A stretch of DNA of 20,656 nucleotides, taken from positions 1 to 20,656 of IMG/VR virus record IMGVR_UViG_3300046413_000742; one strand, given 5' to 3'. Shown piece after piece: positions 2,513 through 18,811 of this stretch (positions within the stretch are counted from its first letter, which is position 1; every line of letters starts with the position of its first letter). This DNA is from a virus. A program made the translations under genes and the position numbers. The notes beneath the pieces were generated by a model. That model searched no databases, had not been told where the DNA came from, and saw only the letters and a list, made by a program, of their open reading frames with translations.

Positions 2513-5500
2513 TGAGTCTTACCGAAGAAGAAAAAGCAGCTTTCAACGCTATCCGTAGTGGCAACGTCGCCCCTCCAATTCCAGAGGAAGAGACACCCAT
2601 AGAACCTGAAGTACAGGCTGAGGCTGACATGGAGATTGCCCAGAGTGGCCCTTCAGCGATGCAACAGCTACAAGGTCTAGGTATTGAGATGGGTGGTACT
2701 ATCGCTGGAACATATGCCACCACTAAAGCCCTACAAACACAACGAGTAGCTAGGGGACTGAGCTTTCTAAAGAACATCCGTAGAGCTGGTCAAGTTGCCG
2801 TTACTGCTGGAGTTGCTGGCCCACAAGCTGCCGAACCAGTAAGCACCGTTGGGGGATTAGTTACCTTTGGTTTAACTGAAGGAGCTTGGGCGCTCGGTAG
2901 TAACTTTGTAAAACAAGAATATTTTAAAGCTCTAGGTGTCCAAGAGGAGACCTCAGGCGGGGAGCTACTAGCCTCCGCTTTACTTGTTGGCCCTTTGATT
3001 AGCCAAGGACGTAAGATTCCCAAGATAGGACAGGTGTTTGATACATCTATGATCAACTCCCGTAAGTGGCGCGTAGGCGCTCACGTGGTACAAGGATCGA
3101 TTATTGGTTCCGTAGAGAGTTCTATTAGACAAACCTTTGACCTAATGGCTGATGAAGATGCTAGTATTGGCGACTTTAGCATGTCTGACTTGTTCACAGG
3201 TGCTGCTGGTGGTGCTGCCTTTGGTGGTGCTCTCGGATTAGGTAGTGATACGATTGGACTCATAAAGACCTACAGAGCTGTTGTAGCTCGCAGTAAGGTT
3301 GAGATGAGAGGTTCCCTAGTTGAACGCCTAGCAAAGCTCGACAAGGCCATTGCTAAAGCTCAGAAGATAGGAATGAACCGAAATCGTATTGTTGCTGAAA
3401 TGCAAGCGGCAAAAGTTAAAGAAGAACTAGATCAACTAGACGCAGTTCACGATTCCATCGATGAGAAGTTAGCTGAAACAGAAGCTGCTGTAGAGTCTCT
3501 AAATGCTCCTAAGGAAACCCCAGCGGTTACTGAGGAACAAGTAAACCTAGCCAATGATTGGGATGCTAGAAAAGCATCCGAGGGTGAGGAAGTTACCCCC
3601 ACTAATTTAGAGGGTGTAGATGTTGTTGAAGCCCCAGAAGCGTCAGCGACTACTGCGACACCTAAAGACACCCCAGAGCCTACCCCCGCTCCTAAGACGC
3701 CCTTCCAAGCCCTCATGGATGACTACGACGCAGCCATTGCTGAACAAAGTCAAGGACGAGGTGCTGACCAAATCATTAAGCTAAATAAGCACTTCAACGC
3801 TATCTCGGATGACTTCGCTAAGAAGGCTGATGCTCTCATAGCCAATCCAAACGCTGAGAGTGTTGATGAGTTGTTAGCAATGCTGGATGAATACACAGCG
3901 TTTGACGCTAAGGATGCGGAGCTAAAACAAAAGACGGGGCAAGACCTACGAGCTCAAGCACGAGATGCAGAAAACATAGCACTTGAAAGAGAGCCTATGT
4001 CTGAAGCACGCGCGATACGCAATCAGGCACTCAAGGCTGTCCGCGAGAAGCTCCAAGCGATGAAGGATGACGTTGACGGAGCTGAGATGCAAAAGCTCGT
4101 AGAGGACATCTTCACCTACCCAGAGCCAGTCAAAAAAGGTAAGAGCACTAGAACTCCGAGCCCTGATGAAGCTTTCATGCCTCCACCTAAAGATGGTGAA
4201 GCACCTACAGATACTCCAAAGGATGGAGAAGCTCCTACAGCTACCCCCAAAGACCCAGAGACACCTAAGCTTACACCAAAGGAACGCTCTATAGCTCGCC
4301 TACGGAAGAAGCTAGATGAACTACGTGCTATCCGTAGCGGTGAGCAAGACCCCAAAGCACCTAAGCCTAAGAAAAGGAAGAGTGCTGAAGAGAAAGACCT
4401 AGAGGAACGCATTAAGTTCTACCAAGGAGAGTCCAAGGAAGTTGATGCTATAGCGGCATCTCAAGAACGTATCCAAGTTCTCAGCGGCCTTATCCAAGGT
4501 AACAGTCCTTCTCAAATACGTCAGCAAATAGGACTTCCACCTAAGTTTCGCCCAGCGCACTCAACGCCTAAGAAGATTGAGACAACACTTACCAAGCTAA
4601 AGGCAACCGAAGCAAAGCTGATGAAGATACTTCGTCGCAAGCAAACAGATGCAATACTTAGTGATATGAGAAACGTCTTTGATCCTGAACACGGCTCTCG
4701 TAGCATCGTGGATACAGCTCTCAATGGCTACCTAACGGCTCGCACAGATGCTCTACTCAATCAGCCCTCAACAGCTACCACGGGTCTTCCTTCAGGCGCA
4801 ATCCGAGTTATCTTGGCTCCCCTCAAGCAGACAGGCAAGAATACCCTTCAAGCACTTAACCCTGCCGATAGAGCACTCAAGGGTGTTCCCATGACGCAGA
4901 GGATGAAGTTTGCAGCGGCGGACGTTCTAGCTACTGCTGATCAGTTAATAACCTTTGCTCAGAGTCCTATCGTCACATCTAAACAAGCTTGGCGTAATAC
5001 TGTTGATACATTTAAACAGGGAGGCTCAAGTGGTTACTTCTACAAGGATGCCAACAAGATTGACGTTCGGGATACCGCTGAGAACGCTGGTAACTCTTCT
5101 ATCAGAAACACTCGTCAAGTTTTACAGGGTGACATAAGAGCAAGAGCTAACGAGCAAAAGAGCGTAATCGTTCGTCAAGCTATGAAACTTATGGGGTCTG
5201 ACCCAGCGACAGCTTTAATGGCACTTTCTAAAGCCATCTGGAGTGGAGGTCGTCGCGGCGTAGGCGCTCTTGATGAGCCCTTTAATTTGATCCTACAAGG
5301 TCGCGGTATTCGTGCTGAGGCAATCAAAGAAGCCATCAAGCAACAAGTGAAACCTGAAGAAGTTGCTGGGTTCATCGATGATTACATTAAAAAGTCTAGC
5401 ACAATAGATGCCCAAGGCGTTAAACGCTTCAACTACCTAGATGAGAAGTATCGTAACACAGCCAACCAAACGCGTCGTGGATTGTTTCGCCCAGCAGACT

Positions 5501-7050
5501 TAGACAAGAATGACCCTAGGATGCTTATGGAAGAAACCTTGGTTCAGTCTATACGTTCTTGGACAGGAGGGGACTTAACAGCTTCTAAGTTCCTGTTCCG
5601 ATTCCTTCAGCCAATTATTACTACCCCTACGATTGCCTTGGCTCAACAGGGACGCATTGCAGCTCAAACTACTGGTCTTCCTGCGCTAGTTGATGTTGGG
5701 CAACGCTTGTATGCTGGGGGCGCTAAACGAGTAGGTAAACAAGGTAAGATTAGTAACGTAATGTCTGGTCGTATTAACAAGGAGATTAATGACCTAGAGA
5801 TCAAAGTAGAAGACCGCCGAGCTAAGACTAAAGAAAAAGGATTAGATAAAGATGAGCAAAAGAAACGCGATGAAGACTTAGCGGCTCACCAAGAGCAACT
5901 CAAAAGTCTACGCGACTACCGAGATGAGCAGACCTACGAGCAAATAGCTATGATGGCTCTGGGTATGGGAATAGTCTACACTTACTTTGAGCTTGGTAAG
6001 AATGGACTAGCTACTGGTGCTGGAGCTTTCTTTACACGAGATCAACGTAACCAAGGGGAGTTTCAGAAATATAGAATGTTGATGGATGAGGAATCCGAGG
6101 GCATAAACTATCTCTTGGCTGAGCCGATTCGTTTCCTAGCGGCATTCTCTGCTGACTTGGGAGCTTGGTCAGCACTTGAAGGTTCAACCACCGAGAAGCA
6201 AACCATAGGTAATTTCGTAACAAGCACGCTTGAGGCATATGCTACTGACGCTGTATTCACGACTAGCTTGCGTCACATGAAAGACTTGGCATTTGGTAAA
6301 GAGAAGTCTCGTACAGGTGCTATCATTGATATAGCTGCTGGTGGTATCCCTATCCCATCTGGGTTCCGATCAGCGCGTGTCTTAGATGACGAAAACTATT
6401 CAGTGTATGACGAAGGTGCTGATGTGGGCGATATGTTCTATCGAGCGTTCGATAAATCCGTGGGAACAGAAGCAGATAATTTCCGTGTAGATAAACTAGG
6501 AAGACCTCTAATGCGCCCAGAGCGAGGAGCTTTGAACTACGTCTTTAGATATGCTCCAGAAGACCGAGCTTACAGAATGACAGCCGAAGAAGAGGTTCGT
6601 AAAGTGCTCCGTAACGATGGCCTTAGCTACAACCTAATTCCAAAGATGACAGAGTTTAAAACCATCAATGGTACTCAAGTAAATCTAAAGGAGTTCACTA
6701 GTAGCGGTCGCTCGTTGTTCAACCTGTTCGCAGAGGTGGTCAACGATGGCGATGAGATGCTTCACGAGTTACACGACTTAGTGACAGATGAAGACTGGCA
6801 AATGGACTACGATAATTACACTGTAGAGCCTGACCCAGATAATCAAGACAAGCTATACAACAAAGGCATAGACCGTCTTAAAGAAGTTCGTCAGAAGCAC
6901 GTTGATCGCGCTGTTGACTACATCTCAGATGAATCTAACATCAATCTATATCGCAACAAAGACGGACAGACCGTTCACGAGTACATTAAAAGTCTTGAAG
7001 AACGCCCTGCACGCTCTGGAAATGTTCTCGAAAAACTTAACCAATTCTAA
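2512..7050 (+). CDS. Internal virion protein, gp16-like DNA-ejection protein (no lytic transglycosylase seen)
   Basis: At 1512 residues this is the largest gene in the window and longer than T7 gp16 (1318). It occupies the gp16 slot and starts on the base that ends the gp15-like stop. Visible architecture: an N-terminal region (1-220) with Gly/Ala-rich hydrophobic stretches; a Gly-rich segment at about 228-250 (FTGAAGGAAFGGALGLG); a coiled-coil-like Lys/Glu/Ala stretch at about 270-325; two Pro/Thr/Glu-rich linkers at about 360-400 and 555-600, the second repeating KDGEAPT; a long helical body; and a hydrophobic stretch at about 1145-1175 (IAMMALGMGIVYTYFELG). T7 gp16 begins with a soluble lytic transglycosylase domain; I see no such motif here. 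Its expected role is to span the inner membrane and pull or guide phage DNA into the cell. Composition and gene order support the family; detailed homology was not tested. Confidence 0.75.
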   Translation: MSLTEEEKAAFNAIRSGNVAPPIPEEETPIEPEVQAEADMEIAQSGPSAMQQLQGLGIEMGGTIAGTYATTKALQTQRVARGLSFLKNIRRAGQVAVTAGVAGPQAAEPVSTVGGLVTFGLTEGAWALGSNFVKQEYFKALGVQEETSGGELLASALLVGPLISQGRKIPKIGQVFDTSMINSRKWRVGAHVVQGSIIGSVESSIRQTFDLMADEDASIGDFSMSDLFTGAAGGAAFGGALGLGSDTIGLIKTYRAVVARSKVEMRGSLVERLAKLDKAIAKAQKIGMNRNRIVAEMQAAKVKEELDQLDAVHDSIDEKLAETEAAVESLNAPKETPAVTEEQVNLANDWDARKASEGEEVTPTNLEGVDVVEAPEASATTATPKDTPEPTPAPKTPFQALMDDYDAAIAEQSQGRGADQIIKLNKHFNAISDDFAKKADALIANPNAESVDELLAMLDEYTAFDAKDAELKQKTGQDLRAQARDAENIALEREPMSEARAIRNQALKAVREKLQAMKDDVDGAEMQKLVEDIFTYPEPVKKGKSTRTPSPDEAFMPPPKDGEAPTDTPKDGEAPTATPKDPETPKLTPKERSIARLRKKLDELRAIRSGEQDPKAPKPKKRKSAEEKDLEERIKFYQGESKEVDAIAASQERIQVLSGLIQGNSPSQIRQQIGLPPKFRPAHSTPKKIETTLTKLKATEAKLMKILRRKQTDAILSDMRNVFDPEHGSRSIVDTALNGYLTARTDALLNQPSTATTGLPSGAIRVILAPLKQTGKNTLQALNPADRALKGVPMTQRMKFAAADVLATADQLITFAQSPIVTSKQAWRNTVDTFKQGGSSGYFYKDANKIDVRDTAENAGNSSIRNTRQVLQGDIRARANEQKSVIVRQAMKLMGSDPATALMALSKAIWSGGRRGVGALDEPFNLILQGRGIRAEAIKEAIKQQVKPEEVAGFIDDYIKKSSTIDAQGVKRFNYLDEKYRNTANQTRRGLFRPADLDKNDPRMLMEETLVQSIRSWTGGDLTASKFLFRFLQPIITTPTIALAQQGRIAAQTTGLPALVDVGQRLYAGGAKRVGKQGKISNVMSGRINKEINDLEIKVEDRRAKTKEKGLDKDEQKKRDEDLAAHQEQLKSLRDYRDEQTYEQIAMMALGMGIVYTYFELGKNGLATGAGAFFTRDQRNQGEFQKYRMLMDEESEGINYLLAEPIRFLAAFSADLGAWSALEGSTTEKQTIGNFVTSTLEAYATDAVFTTSLRHMKDLAFGKEKSRTGAIIDIAAGGIPIPSGFRSARVLDDENYSVYDEGADVGDMFYRAFDKSVGTEADNFRVDKLGRPLMRPERGALNYVFRYAPEDRAYRMTAEEEVRKVLRNDGLSYNLIPKMTEFKTINGTQVNLKEFTSSGRSLFNLFAEVVNDGDEMLHELHDLVTDEDWQMDYDNYTVEPDPDNQDKLYNKGIDRLKEVRQKHVDRAVDYISDESNINLYRNKDGQTVHEYIKSLEERPARSGNVLEKLNQF

Positions 7051-7062
7051 CCCCAACTAATT

Positions 7063-7749
7063 ATGGCTAACAGCTACATTGAATATACCTCAGGACTCAC
7101 AGCAACTACCTACAGCGTTCCCTTCAACTTTCTGTCTATTACGGACGTCAACGTGAAGGGCTACAACGGAACCACTTGGAGTGACCTTACAGTCTCTTCT
7201 CGTGACGCCTCAGCAAAGACCGTAACACTCGACGGAGCACCCAGTGCTTACCAAAAGATACGCGTATGGCGTAACACTGGAACTACACAGCTAGTGGACT
7301 TCCAGAGTGGCTCTAGGTTGTCTGAGAGTGACCTCGACACAGCTTACCAACAAGGTTTGTTTGTGGCTCAAGAGGTTTCTGAGAATGCCTCCGCTAGTGG
7401 TTACCCTTTGACTGGTGCGGAAGGGCCTGCTGGAGCTGACGGAGCGGATGGAGCTGATGGAGCTGATGGAGCTGACGGAGCTGATGCTACTGCCCCGATT
7501 CCAGACGCAGGTGCTATTGGAGCTTACAGTTTTGGCAGACCCTTAACTACTGGAGCTATAGCAATAGGTGCAACATCTACAGCGTTTCATGCTTTTCAAC
7601 AGGACGAAGTATCAAACGTTGTAGCCTTTTACAACGGAAATGTTGTCAATGGAAATTCCTCTAGTCAGACTGGAACGTGGAGGTGCATGTCTGGATGCGG
7701 CGCCGACAATACGCGCGGTTTCGCAGGCTTGTGGCTCAGAATCTCATAA
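7063..7749 (+). CDS. Short tail fibre protein with T7 gp17-type N-terminus and collagen-like repeat
   Basis: The 228-residue product starts MANSYIEYTSGLTATTYSVP and continues with a pattern (VPFNFLSITDV, VTLDGAP, IRVWRNTGT, LVDFQSGSRLSESDLDTAYQQ) that matches the virion-anchoring N-terminal domain of T7 gp17 (about residues 1-110). A collagen-like block, six GAD triplets at about residues 124-141, follows. The C-terminus (GTWRCMSGCGADNTRGFAGLWLRIS) resembles the small tip domain common at the end of phage tail fibres. T7 gp17 is 553 residues, so this fibre lacks most of the shaft. It may be a genuinely short receptor-binding fibre or an adaptor for another fibre outside the window. The start is 12 bases after the gp16-like stop, in the context ACTAATTATGG without a Shine-Dalgarno. 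Confidence 0.85.
   Translation: MANSYIEYTSGLTATTYSVPFNFLSITDVNVKGYNGTTWSDLTVSSRDASAKTVTLDGAPSAYQKIRVWRNTGTTQLVDFQSGSRLSESDLDTAYQQGLFVAQEVSENASASGYPLTGAEGPAGADGADGADGADGADGADATAPIPDAGAIGAYSFGRPLTTGAIAIGATSTAFHAFQQDEVSNVVAFYNGNVVNGNSSSQTGTWRCMSGCGADNTRGFAGLWLRIS
7432..7485 (+). repeat. 9-bp tandem repeat (6 units) encoding Gly-Ala-Asp triplets
   Basis: Six consecutive copies of GGAGCTGAY or GGAGCGGAT lie in frame inside the tail fibre gene. Only third-position and one second-codon wobble differences separate the units. The unit encodes Gly-Ala-Asp, a collagen-like triplet. Slippage would change shaft length without breaking the frame. Confidence 0.9.
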
Positions 7750-11248: not shown

Positions 11249-11497
11249 CTTGGTTTTGGTATAAAAATCTGAGGGGGTATACGTATATAGCCGCGGAAAA
11301 ATTCCCCCCGATGGGGTCGGGATTCTGCGCCTGTTGTCGGCGTTTTGTCATCGCACGGGGGGTATGCCTTTGCTACTATGGACATGCGAAGGATATATAA
11401 TGTCTTTTGTGCAGCATCGAGGTTCATATCAAGGTATCATGATGCGTCGATGCGTTCACCTGTGTTTGTGAAATGCTGTGTTTTTGTGTTCTCACTC

Positions 11498-12628: not shown

Positions 12629-12787
12629 ATGCAAAAACTAATTGACTCACTTATCTCTTCCAGAGATCAACTAACTCTCCAAATCATGATCGCTAGATTT
12701 GATGATGGCGACATGAAGCTACACGCCAGTCTCTGCAAATCTCGCGACGATCTAGATATCATCATCGATAGCATTACTAACCACTAA
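12629..12787 (+). CDS. Small early helical protein (52 aa)
   Basis: The product MQKLIDSLISSRDQLTLQIMI...SLCKSRDDLDIIIDSITNH is predicted all-helical, with heptad-like hydrophobics. The frame is open further upstream (ATG at 12597, and a TTG-type start at 12491), but those starts overlap the previous gene. The ATG at 12629 follows the CA-rich, G-free leader typical of this cluster, so it is preferred. The last codons and stop form part of a 19-bp repeat shared with the next intergenic leader. Function unknown. Confidence 0.55.
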   Translation: MQKLIDSLISSRDQLTLQIMIARFDDGDMKLHASLCKSRDDLDIIIDSITNH

Positions 12788-14675: not shown

Positions 14676-15698
14676 ATGAGTATTAGAAAGAGCGGTAAAA
14701 ACGAAAACAAGTTCATGGCAGACTTCATGGTCAAAGGTGTAAGATACCGCCGCCAATGGCCTACCTACGAGGAAGCGGCAGCTTGGGAGTCAGAGCTTAA
14801 AAAGAGGATACGCCTAGGGATACCCTACACGGAGCTCTTAGAAGGCACTGGTGACTTCATCACGCTAGGAGAACTAGCAGACAAGACAATGGTTCGTTAC
14901 TGGGAGGGAACCGCCAACGAGCGCACCCAACGATCTAATGTAAAGATTGTTATTGAACACTTCGGGGAAGGCTACGATGTCTCCCAGTTAGATGTTGGAG
15001 CAGTCGATACCTTCATCTTTGCATTGGAGAAGAAAGGGCTGGCTAAGGCTACAATAAACCGCCGCCTGTCTTGCCTGTCTAGGATACTTACCTTTGGGGT
15101 AGATCGTGGGTTCCTCACGCACAAGCCTAAGATAGAGCAGAAGAAGCTATCTAACGGACGCATGAGGTTCCTTACCGAGGAGGAGGAGTATGAAATCATA
15201 GACACCTTAGAGGCCGCTGGTAAGGATGACTTCGCTAGGTTTTTTGAGTGGCAAATAGACACAGGTATGCGTCCTATCGAAGCTCGCCACATACCACAAA
15301 CCGCCGTAAGGGAAGACCCACAACACGGATGGCTGGTAGACTTGAGCAAGACCAAGAACAACTACCCTCGCACCATCTGGCTTACCGACAGGGCTTACAA
15401 GGCTTACGTTGCTTTATCGGATGAACAGTTCCCATTTGCTAGGTTCACCGAGTCTCGGATAGCAACAGCTTGGAAGTTCATACGGGAAGCCCTCAACGAG
15501 ACAGCCGACAAGGAGTTTGTGTTCTATCTTACAAGGCACACATGCGCGTCGAGGTTGGTTCAACGCAATGTTCCCCTTCAGATAGTCAAGGAGTGGATGG
15601 GTCACCGTAACTTTGAGATGACCTTGCGTTATGCAAAGCTTACTCCCACCAATATGCTTGACGCACGCAACGCTCTTCAACAATCTCACATACACTAA
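14676..15698 (+). CDS. int: Phage integrase, tyrosine recombinase
   Basis: A 340-residue, full-length integrase. The N-terminal basic arm-binding-like part is at 1-60 (MSIRKSGKNENKFMADFMVKG...). The SAM-like core-binding domain is at about 62-155 (LGELADKTMVRYW... AKATINRRLSCLSRILTFGVDRG). The catalytic domain is at about 165-325: box I Arg in DTGMRPIEARH (R199), the beta-hairpin Lys in SKTKNN (K225/K227), box II YLTRHTCASRL (R287, H288), then WMGHRNFEMTLRYA with H310 and the nucleophile Y319. The usual first His of the HxxR box is Tyr (Y284). It would insert the phage at an attB by site-specific recombination. It lies upstream of the RNA polymerase, so host polymerase could express it before the phage polymerase appears. 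GGAAAG about 9 bases before the ATG is the best Shine-Dalgarno-like site in the window. Confidence 0.95.
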   Translation: MSIRKSGKNENKFMADFMVKGVRYRRQWPTYEEAAAWESELKKRIRLGIPYTELLEGTGDFITLGELADKTMVRYWEGTANERTQRSNVKIVIEHFGEGYDVSQLDVGAVDTFIFALEKKGLAKATINRRLSCLSRILTFGVDRGFLTHKPKIEQKKLSNGRMRFLTEEEEYEIIDTLEAAGKDDFARFFEWQIDTGMRPIEARHIPQTAVREDPQHGWLVDLSKTKNNYPRTIWLTDRAYKAYVALSDEQFPFARFTESRIATAWKFIREALNETADKEFVFYLTRHTCASRLVQRNVPLQIVKEWMGHRNFEMTLRYAKLTPTNMLDARNALQQSHIH

Positions 15699-15938: not shown

Positions 15939-16139
15939 ATGAAATATACACACACACTCGAAATGGACAACGAGCAAGGGGAACGATGCAACGTCGCTGT
16001 TGCTTTTCGCGCTGATCCCTTCAAGCGATTCGCTGGATTCACATCAATACACTCGGATAACCCTATCTACTCCGAAGACCTGCACCACCTAGAGCAGTTT
16101 ATAAGGATGGATAAAGATAAATGGGTGACAAATCGCTGA
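15939..16139 (+). CDS. Small early hypothetical protein (66 aa)
   Basis: The product MKYTHTLEMDNEQGERCNVAVAFRADPFKRFAGFTSIH... is likely a small beta-rich domain followed by a helix (SEDLHHLEQFIRM). The start context is AACACCTATG. Its last five codons and stop overlap the first TGACAAA repeat of the polymerase upstream region. Function unknown. Confidence 0.55.
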   Translation: MKYTHTLEMDNEQGERCNVAVAFRADPFKRFAGFTSIHSDNPIYSEDLHHLEQFIRMDKDKWVTNR

Positions 16140-16380
16140 CAAAGTTTGTCAAAACAGCTAAAACAAAGGCAAGTGCTAGGTGACAATAAAATGGAAAGGT
16201 TGTTGAAAATCAATAAGTTGACACCGTTGCAAAAAAAGTTACGATACTCCTCATTGGATAGTAAATGTCTTTTTTGTCACCTATTGCTGTAACCCTATTG
16301 ATAATTAAACATTTTTAAACAAACTGTTATCCGTTTTGTCTCTTACTTTTTATTTGCCTAGGTGACAAATCACTGACAAA
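16124..16380. repeat. TAGGTGACAA/TGACAAA repeat cluster upstream of the RNA polymerase gene
   Basis: Two 20-bp copies, GGTGACAAATCGCTGACAAA (16124-16143) and GGTGACAAATCACTGACAAA (16361-16380), differ at one base and flank the region. Two more GGTGACAA words lie at 16179-16186 (+) and 16274-16281 (inverted). Three copies extend to TAGGTGACAA. GACAAA-G-TTTGTC at 16138-16150 is a perfect inverted repeat. The last copy ends 10 bases before the polymerase ATG. The arrangement is what repressor or activator operators look like. Confidence 0.75.
16218..16245 (+). promoter_or_regulatory. Sigma70-like promoter of the RNA polymerase gene
   Basis: Perfect TTGACA (16218-16223), a 16-base spacer with an A-tract, and TACGAT (16240-16245, 4 of 6). 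It lies inside the repeat cluster, so repressor binding there would block it. It would let host RNA polymerase make the phage polymerase. Confidence 0.5.
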
Positions 16381-16390
16381 TCTTTTGACT

Positions 16391-18811
16391 ATGGACACAA
16401 AACTCACACAAGACGAACTCAACCACGATATGACCACCGTAGGCGTGGGTCGCTACCGTAACAAGGTAGAGGGAGCCCGCGCTCGTGGTATGGAATCTGA
16501 GACGTCTTATGGTCAGAGGCTGATACGTGGGGCGCTTCCTTCATATATCAAGGCCATTGATGAGGTGAAAGAAAAGTGGCGTCTAATTAAGAACAAAGGT
16601 CGGTGGCAGATAGACCTCTTAGAAATCCCTTCAGAGAAGATTGGGTTTCTTGTTATCCGCACCGTCCTAGACCAGCTTACACAGAACTCCAAGATGACCG
16701 CCATGTGCACCAAGGTGGGCAACGTCATCGACTATCAGCGCCGCTCCGAGTTCCTTGTTCGCAACAACCCAAAGGGTGAAGGGATTGTTCTAGGGGCTAC
16801 CCGTAAGAGCGGCTGGCAAGCTACCAAGAACCACATCCGTGTTAGCACCAAGCATGAGGTCGAGAAGGGTCTGATGGAGGAGCCACACTCGTGGACACGT
16901 AGAGATGTAGCCACAACAGGTATCAACCTTGTAGAACTCCTCAGGGATGTCACGGGGATCATTGAGTATCGGTTCATCACAGACACAGGCCGTAGAAACC
17001 CAACACGCTACGTCACAGCCTCAGCAGAGACCCTCAAGTGGATTGATGAGTTTAACTATCACAAGGAAATCATAAGCCCTTTCTGGTTACCTACAGTGGA
17101 CACACCAATGGAGTGGAAGAACGTCTGGGAAGGTGGCTACCGTCTTGAAGATACATCGCTGCCTAAGCTTCCATTTATCAAGACCACCAACATGGAGTTC
17201 CTTCGGGGTATTGAAGGTAAACTAGACGAGCCTATGGAGGCTTGTAACCTTATCCAGCAAACACCTTGGAAGATTAACGAGGACGTTCTCCAGACCATGC
17301 AGTGGGCTTGGAAGAACTCAGTAAAAGTTGGTGGTCTACCTAGCCGTGACGATGAGGTGATGCCCGACATCCCCGATGACTTCCACGAAAACAAGATAGT
17401 AAACCTTCAGTGGCGCACAATGGCCTCTGGTGTTCACAAGAGAAATATGAGCACACGCTCAAGACGCCTACTGGTGGCTAAGGTGCTTTACCTAGCCGAG
17501 AAGCTTACAGGTAGTCGGTTCTTCTATCCTTCACACTGTGACTTCCGAGGTCGGGTCTATAACATCCCTGCCTTTCTGGGTATCCAAGGCCCTGATATGT
17601 GTCGCGGGTTGCTTCGGTTCGCTAGACCTCAACGTATTAAGACAGCAACAGACCGCAAGTGGTTAGCCATACAAGGTGCTAACACTTGGGGCTACGATAA
17701 AGTCACACTCGACCAACGTGCTGAGTGGGCTGAGAACTTTTCCAAGGACGCTATCCGTATCGCTGCTAACCCTACCAAGGAGTTATTATGGACAGAAGCG
17801 GGTGACCCTTGGCAATTCCTTGCGTGGTGCTTTGAATGGGCCACACTACAGAACACGGGTAAGCTAGATACCTTTCTCCCAGTGAATATGGATGCCACCA
17901 ATAACGGCCTCCAGATTCTCTCTATGCTTACCCGTGACCCCTACGGGATGACTGCTACGAATGTGTTACCTACAGACACGCCAGCAGACATCTACGGGGT
18001 CGTTGCAAAACAAGCGGAGATCATCCTCAAGAAACAAGCAGAAGAAGGTGATGCTATCTCTAATGCTTGGGTAACCTTTGGGATAGACCGTAAGACAACC
18101 AAGCGCCCTGTTATGTGTTACTCGTATGGGCTCACTGAATACAGCAACCGCTTGTATATAGCTGACTGGTATGAAGACCAGATACACGGAGAAGGACGCA
18201 CGAGACCCTTTGATGAGAAGGAAAAGTATCTAGCTGTTCACGTTCTAGCCAAAGCAGTTTGGAAGGGTATTGAGAGTGTCTTAGAGAAGCCCAAGGAATG
18301 TATGAAGTGGTTCCAAGACTGTGCCGCTTTGCTTACCGAGGCTGAGCTTCCTGTTACTTGGGTTACACCCAGTGGCTTCCCTGTTCACCAAGAGTATTTC
18401 AACTTCACAAGTAAGAACATCAAGACTTGGATTAGCGGAACAGCTACTCACATTCGTTTCCGTGAGAACGACGATAAGCTATCCAAGGTTCGCCAGCGCA
18501 ACGGAGTGTCCCCTAACTTTGTTCACTCACTAGATGCTGCGGCTCTCCATAAAACAATCATCAAAGCCAACGAGGAAGAAGGAATCTATGACTTTGCATT
18601 TATCCACGACAGCTATGGAACACACGCTACAGGGTGCGAAGCTCTGAGTAAAAGTTTGAGAGATGTATTCATTTCTATGTTTAGCGTTGACCTCCTTAAA
18701 GATTGGAAACATCAACTAGAACAGCAATCGGGATTAGAACTTCCAGAGCCTCCAGAATATGGAACTGCTGACATCTCCAAAATCAAAGATAGCACGTATT
18801 TCTTCAGCTAA
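16391..18811 (+). CDS. Phage single-subunit DNA-directed RNA polymerase (T7 gp1-like)
   Basis: An 806-residue enzyme (T7: 883). Landmarks: DFRGRVYNIPAF at about 384-395; motif A VNMDATNNGLQILS with catalytic D501; motif B KTTKRPVMCYSYG with K571 and Y579; the specificity-loop region about 676-705; VSPNFVHSLDAAAL at about 706-719; and motif C FIHDSYGTHA with D740. Motif A differs from the usual DGSCNGLQH in using DATNNGLQI. It transcribes middle and late phage genes from phage-specific promoters. The ATG at 16391 (TTGACTATGGAC) is preferred over a TTG two codons upstream. It is preceded by the repeat cluster and followed after 54 bases by the ssDNA-binding gene. The full-length catalytic set indicates an active enzyme. 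Confidence 0.97.
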   Translation: MDTKLTQDELNHDMTTVGVGRYRNKVEGARARGMESETSYGQRLIRGALPSYIKAIDEVKEKWRLIKNKGRWQIDLLEIPSEKIGFLVIRTVLDQLTQNSKMTAMCTKVGNVIDYQRRSEFLVRNNPKGEGIVLGATRKSGWQATKNHIRVSTKHEVEKGLMEEPHSWTRRDVATTGINLVELLRDVTGIIEYRFITDTGRRNPTRYVTASAETLKWIDEFNYHKEIISPFWLPTVDTPMEWKNVWEGGYRLEDTSLPKLPFIKTTNMEFLRGIEGKLDEPMEACNLIQQTPWKINEDVLQTMQWAWKNSVKVGGLPSRDDEVMPDIPDDFHENKIVNLQWRTMASGVHKRNMSTRSRRLLVAKVLYLAEKLTGSRFFYPSHCDFRGRVYNIPAFLGIQGPDMCRGLLRFARPQRIKTATDRKWLAIQGANTWGYDKVTLDQRAEWAENFSKDAIRIAANPTKELLWTEAGDPWQFLAWCFEWATLQNTGKLDTFLPVNMDATNNGLQILSMLTRDPYGMTATNVLPTDTPADIYGVVAKQAEIILKKQAEEGDAISNAWVTFGIDRKTTKRPVMCYSYGLTEYSNRLYIADWYEDQIHGEGRTRPFDEKEKYLAVHVLAKAVWKGIESVLEKPKECMKWFQDCAALLTEAELPVTWVTPSGFPVHQEYFNFTSKNIKTWISGTATHIRFRENDDKLSKVRQRNGVSPNFVHSLDAAALHKTIIKANEEEGIYDFAFIHDSYGTHATGCEALSKSLRDVFISMFSVDLLKDWKHQLEQQSGLELPEPPEYGTADISKIKDSTYFFS

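Follow-up and report, generated by a model that had tools for sequence, protein, structure and literature searches.

Gene order and the integrase

The window analyzed here, a 20,656-nucleotide stretch of DNA from a marine T7-like phage, encodes on its plus strand a 340-aa tyrosine integrase (positions 14676 to 15698), a small open reading frame (ORF) of 66 aa (15939 to 16139), and a T7-type single-subunit phage RNA polymerase (16391 to 18811). The polymerase matches PF00940 with an E value of 2e-93 and is 41% identical to the polymerase of Ayaqvirus S45C18. The integrase has predicted N-terminal arm-binding, core-binding, and catalytic domains and matches the PF00589 (E value, 7.5e-18) and phrog_1 integrase (E value, 2.2e-46) profiles. 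The enzyme encoded next to the site described below is intact, and its catalytic residues R199, H288, H310, and Y319 are invariant in 18 homologues.

In the AlphaFold model of the integrase (mean pLDDT of 80.5), residues 2 to 47 form a β-β-β-helix unit, i.e., a three-stranded sheet plus a helix, with pLDDT values of 72 to 83 in this block; on this model, they are the arm-binding domain. Fold searches match the model to Tn1549 Int, Xer, and lambda Int, with global TM-scores that are low (0.33 to 0.41) because the domain orientation is uncertain.

Elements upstream of the polymerase gene

The first-pass annotation of this DNA described a cluster of operator-like words in front of the polymerase gene, and its elements are confirmed in the sequence. 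Two 20-mers that differ by a single base, GGTGACAAATCGCTGACAAA (16124 to 16143) and GGTGACAAATCACTGACAAA (16361 to 16380), both on the plus strand, bracket the region. Each consists of two putative arm-type integrase sites spaced by 11 bp, about one helical turn: GGTGACAAATC and GCTGACAAA in the left copy (the P arm), which is likewise placed in relatives, and GGTGACAAATC and ACTGACAAA in the right copy (the P' arm). Two further copies of the word GGTGACAA, one of them inverted, are found between the 20-mers. These are TAGGTGACAA (16177 to 16186, plus strand), a third left-side putative arm-type site that is mostly conserved in relatives, and TTGTCACCTA (16274 to 16283), an inverted putative arm-type site that reads TAGGTGACAA on the minus strand. 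The perfect inverted repeat GACAAA-G-TTTGTC is present as GACAAAGTTTGTC at 16138 to 16150; it combines the second arm site with an inverted half word and is kept in only part of the clade (the corresponding sequences are GACAAACTTTGTC in L008 and GACAAACATTGTC in L013). The last 20-mer, described as abutting the polymerase start, does lie near it but ends at 16380, 10 bases before the ATG codon at 16391, and no Shine-Dalgarno sequence is found between the two. The similarity of TAGGTGACA to the SP6 promoter is a resemblance only, the motif being the arm word.

The sigma70-type promoter reported inside the cluster, TTGACA-N16-TACGAT (16218 to 16245, plus strand), is directed toward the polymerase gene. 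Its -35 hexamer overlaps a predicted IHF-type site, AATCAATAAGTTG (16208 to 16220, plus strand; consensus, WATCAANNNNTTR). A putative crossover core, GGA-TAGTAAA-TGTC, occupies positions 16256 to 16269, with a proposed 7-bp overlap at 16259 to 16265; the limits of the half-sites and of the overlap are provisional. The promoter is located to the left of this crossover, and the polymerase is the first gene to the right of it. Alignment reveals another conserved element, ACAAACTGTTATCC (16319 to 16332), between the core and the right arm, which might possibly be a second site for a bending protein. A window-wide search for repeats that could represent promoters of the phage polymerase revealed nothing clear upstream of the polymerase gene.

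The word GGTGACAA occurs four times in the whole window, always within the 16124 to 16380 stretch, a number reached in 0 of 100 dinucleotide shuffles of the window. Among 300 first-order Markov sequences as long as the window, none contains a pair of 20-mers with at most one mismatch and less than 300 bp apart; the window itself has further such pairs at 11497/11528, at 12769/13004, and in a 9-bp tandem repeat near 7440. The tandem repeat (7413 to 7493) is part of a likely tail fiber gene and encodes a Gly-Ala-Asp collagen-like stretch. A 45-nt sequence with CATTACTAAC..CTAATAA.ACA is repeated at 12752, 12987, and 13459, before small early genes, and might be a phage promoter or translation signal.

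The stop codon of the 66-aa ORF lies inside the P arm. The small ORFs that terminate at the P arm or within it differ between phages, with other ORFs found in the same place in L009, L013, L126, and L133, and the GTGA or CTGA of the P arm is able to supply their stop codon. From these sequences, the P arm seems to mark a border at which genes are exchanged.

Distribution of the words among related phages

Scanning viral contigs with the window polymerase yielded 80 loci with 40 to 100% identity. The nearest relatives carry word pairs at the same two positions, and alignment across related phages shows conservation of both the cluster and the sigma70-type promoter upstream of the polymerase. 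One of these relatives, G001, is a 37,897-base contig that is ~98% identical to the window; its ends overlap by ~89 bases (L201 and L202), and it is apparently a complete, closed genome. It contains four GGTGACAA words, three of them at the polymerase-upstream site, whereas TGACAAA-N4-TGACAA occurs exactly twice, both times at this site. The paired site is found exactly twice, at the attachment-site position only, in 6 of the 7 records possessing it. A third TGACAAATCACTGACAA pair is seen in G002 at 16515 to 16531 (L200), away from the attachment site, in a noncoding stretch with many GTGTTGCTAGGTGTT-like repeats.

Judged from these sequences, the word co-varies with the integrase rather than with the polymerase. 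In L028 and L030, the polymerases, which would be the regulated gene products in an operator reading, are 91% identical and the integrases are 73% identical, and the words differ, GTGACAA versus GGGACAA; the sites are thus not conserved with the polymerase. The window and L098 share GTGACAA with 55% identity between their polymerases and 64% between their integrases (70% in the N-terminal 60 residues). The window and L006 have 95% identical polymerases and ~60% identical integrases; the word is the same, and the core is swapped to tRNA-Leu(CAA). The words GGGCAAA, GTGACGG, or AGACAAA go with more distant integrases, and no comparable words are seen upstream of the polymerase in loci with the most distant ones (L041, L043, L044, and L072; 30 to 38% identity). 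The repeats are also absent from six relatives with no PF00589 match in their records, most of which are possibly fragments. Window-type sites with no integrase on the contig are found in L119, L126, L128, L130, L135, and L136, probably because these contigs are too short.

tRNA fragments between the repeats

tRNAs are the usual targets of tyrosine integrases, and tRNA halves at such a place are a mark of an attachment site. A tRNA 3' half, consisting of a T-arm, seven acceptor bases, and NCCA, is found in 19 of the 78 distinct upstream regions, where it lies between the clusters of repeats; two of these 19 hold whole tRNAs. Shuffled controls gave 2 hits in 3,900, and the T-stems in the real regions are several, different, and base-paired. 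The halves were recognized by their T-arm, acceptor, and CCA geometry with this shuffle control and fall below the Rfam gathering threshold, at which only the whole tRNA of L108 is detected. In L006, a tRNA-Leu(CAA) 3' half, read on the minus strand, takes the place of the inter-repeat stretch; other relatives have 3' halves of tRNA-Tyr or tRNA-Ala or 5' halves of tRNA-Leu(TAA), tRNA-Arg, or tRNA-His.

A whole tRNA-Leu(TAA) is located inside the attachment site of L108 (1653 to 1738) and L133 (3672 to 3760), beside a short core that copies the anticodon region. By sequence, these marine T7-like phages look like cases of tRNA-dependent lysogeny. The window core contains no tRNA sequence, and no tRNA is found in the rest of the window site or in the locus pieces L004 and L087 of G001, an arrangement other than that of tRNA-dependent lysogeny. 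A tRNA-Leu(TAA) half is also seen at the likely attachment sites of L193 (6183 to 6223), L194 (4568 to 4608), and L197 (1677 to 1717), which belong to seemingly unrelated integrase-bearing phages and have other repeated words; tRNA-Leu(TAA) thereby seems to be a common integration target. In the pelagiphage HTVC019P (L114, ~3200 to 3260), GGATTTGCAATCC, which resembles a tRNA-Cys anticodon stem-loop, lies between the integrase and the polymerase, which suggests that this phage shares the integrase-attachment site-polymerase layout.

The region as a probable attachment site

In all likelihood, positions 16124 to 16380 represent the phage attachment site (attP) of the integrase encoded at 14676 to 15698, because the words follow the integrase, flank tRNA targets, and are absent where no integrase is detectable. 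The words themselves are very probably arm-type binding sites of this integrase. The N-terminal domain of the integrase would bind the pairs at 16124 to 16143 and 16361 to 16380 and the single sites at 16177 and 16274, a bending protein such as IHF would bind at 16208 to 16220, and strand exchange would take place at a core near 16256 to 16269, with a 7-bp overlap that would correspond to the anticodon loop used by the tRNA-targeting relatives.

In the alignment with relatives, the stretch at 16256 to 16269 takes the place of the tRNA anticodon loop, and among window-type attPs its middle columns vary more than any others of the site. Five of the 10 differences between L016 and L018 fall inside the 7-bp overlap (P = 3e-7), as do 3 of the 7 differences between the window and L003 (P = 3e-4), the overlap having been chosen in both cases after the alignment was seen. 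An overlap exchanged with differing host targets would be the simplest reading of this variation, as in the coupling sequences of conjugative transposons, where the overlap is exchanged with targets; different fixed targets would also explain it. Genome searches for the window clade found no prophage, attL/attR junction, or host attB. A genome scan with the polymerase alignment returned only relatives with 27 to 35% identity, the exact tRNA-Leu 5'-half pattern was found in 0 of 398 genomes and the tRNA-Leu(CAA) pattern in 0 of 120, and an 18-base pattern around the right half of the core retrieved mostly unrelated contigs.

Alternative interpretations

The first-pass annotation read the words as operators, to which a phage repressor would bind to repress the polymerase promoter and hold lysogeny. 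A conserved promoter upstream of the polymerase gene does lie between the words, and for LUZ100 there is a published model with MarR operators (PMC10134795, citing its reference 14 for MarR proteins in temperate T7-like phages). However, the words co-vary with the integrase and not with the polymerase, flank tRNA targets, and are not seen in relatives without a detected integrase; the distance from the promoter to the outer pairs is 75 bp on the upstream side and more than 110 bp on the downstream side; and searches with the MarR_2 and HTH_3 repressor profiles gave no match in G001 or in three other relatives (G002, G003, and G008). Such repressor-held lysogeny is very improbable here, and the interpretation of the words as operators is very probably wrong. 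What stands of the proposed link to lysogeny is that the cluster belongs to the integration machinery, not that an operator silences the polymerase; if the region does control the polymerase, this would possibly be through integration rather than operator binding. The direct repeats at 11-bp spacing in an AT-rich intergenic region could also be taken for iterons of a replication origin adjoining the polymerase gene, but they follow the integrase type and flank tRNA pieces, and relatives that have neither an integrase nor the repeats must replicate as well, which makes an origin extremely unlikely.

A combined role would have the region act as attP while the intasome bound by integrase and IHF represses the promoter as a transient operator. 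The IHF-type consensus WATCAANNNNTTR is matched, as a predicted site, in 16 of the 17 window-type attPs and overlaps TTGACA in these 16, the shared core bases ATCAA and GTTGACA are invariant in all 17, and the P' arm is located at the translation start, ending just short of the ATG codon. Yet the overlap may just reflect the packing of elements in a short region, and this dual use is doubtful.

Promoter position and a proposed integration switch

In the attP reading, the position of the promoter relative to the crossover has a further consequence. TTGACA-N16-TAnnnT is found to the left of the core in 17 of 17 window-type attPs; the promoter score exceeds that of shuffled sequences in the left half, and most of these sites show nothing comparable in the right half. 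The tRNA-Leu(CAA) type likewise has TTGACA-N17-TTTAAT to the left of its core. A strong promoter left of the core is limited to these two types, with none seen on either side of the core in the other relatives. In each of the clades examined, the crossover lies 121 to 138 bp upstream of the polymerase.

Since the promoter lies to the left and the polymerase to the right of the crossover, integration should separate them. The promoter (16218 to 16245) would be left at the integrase end of the prophage and the polymerase at the other end, beside host DNA. It is conceivable, on this geometry, that the separation silences the polymerase in the prophage without a repressor. The lack of a MarR_2 or HTH_3 match in G001, together with the promoter geometry, makes such a switch plausible, and we tentatively propose that attP is a repressor-free switch in which excision restores the promoter, and in which the overlap of the window clade is exchanged freely, freeing the phage from tRNA genes. 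T7-like cyanophages with the integrase-attP-polymerase layout show integration without stable lysogeny. A literature search, with reference 14 of PMC10134795 (the key paper on temperate T7-like phages) lying outside its scope, found no earlier statement of attP as a switch.

For the silencing of the polymerase in integrase-bearing T7-like phages, the published models invoke a MarR repressor. With the supposed operators read as arm sites and the promoter placed beyond the crossover, the question of a repressor becomes a simple physical test. In other temperate T7-like phages, too, repeats around the promoter of the polymerase may be arm-type sites that have been mistaken for operators. The comparative set of attPs, with its many targets and arm words, is a resource for the study of integrase specificity.

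Comparison with known systems

The window site resembles lambda-type attPs in its direct pairs of putative arm sites to either side of the core and its IHF-type consensus, and the modeled β-β-β-helix N-terminal domain of its integrase is like that of lambda Int. It differs from lambda attP in being more symmetrical, and no Xis has been identified. To our knowledge, the arm words of the window are unrelated to those of lambda.

Among T7-like phages, junction PCR has proven that P-SSP7 integrates at a host tRNA-Leu, and S-TIP37 no longer integrates once int or attP is deleted (PMC8776855). In P-SSP7, the integrase gene ends at 5768, the tRNA-Leu half lies at ~5860 to 5900, and the polymerase starts at 6039; the ATATCTAG-containing word ATATCTAGCG is repeated at 5761 and 6008, flanking the tRNA-Leu half, and these repeats may well be arm sites. 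P-SSP7 thus shares with the window the integrase-attP-polymerase order and a repeated word ~250 bp apart around the core, nearly the same span, but differs in its arm words and in having a tRNA core and a MarR-like regulator, neither of which is detected in the window clade. LUZ100 and other temperate Autographiviridae with MarR similarly have an integrase just upstream of the polymerase in a putative lysogeny module (PMC10134795); unlike the window, LUZ100 has a MarR regulator, carries its tRNA-Leu ahead of int, and has a phage-specific promoter in front of its polymerase gene.

In phages with tRNA-dependent lysogeny, putative arm-site pairs are reported to flank attP (PMC10865867). L108 and L133 resemble these phages, with an entire tRNA-Leu(TAA) next to a short core that repeats the anticodon sequence, whereas the window phage has no tRNA at attP. 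In mycobacteriophage BPs (PMC4557955), attP is placed such that integration alters the expression of a key regulatory gene, as it would in the window. However, integration of BPs restructures the repressor gene itself, whereas in the window the polymerase would lose its promoter.
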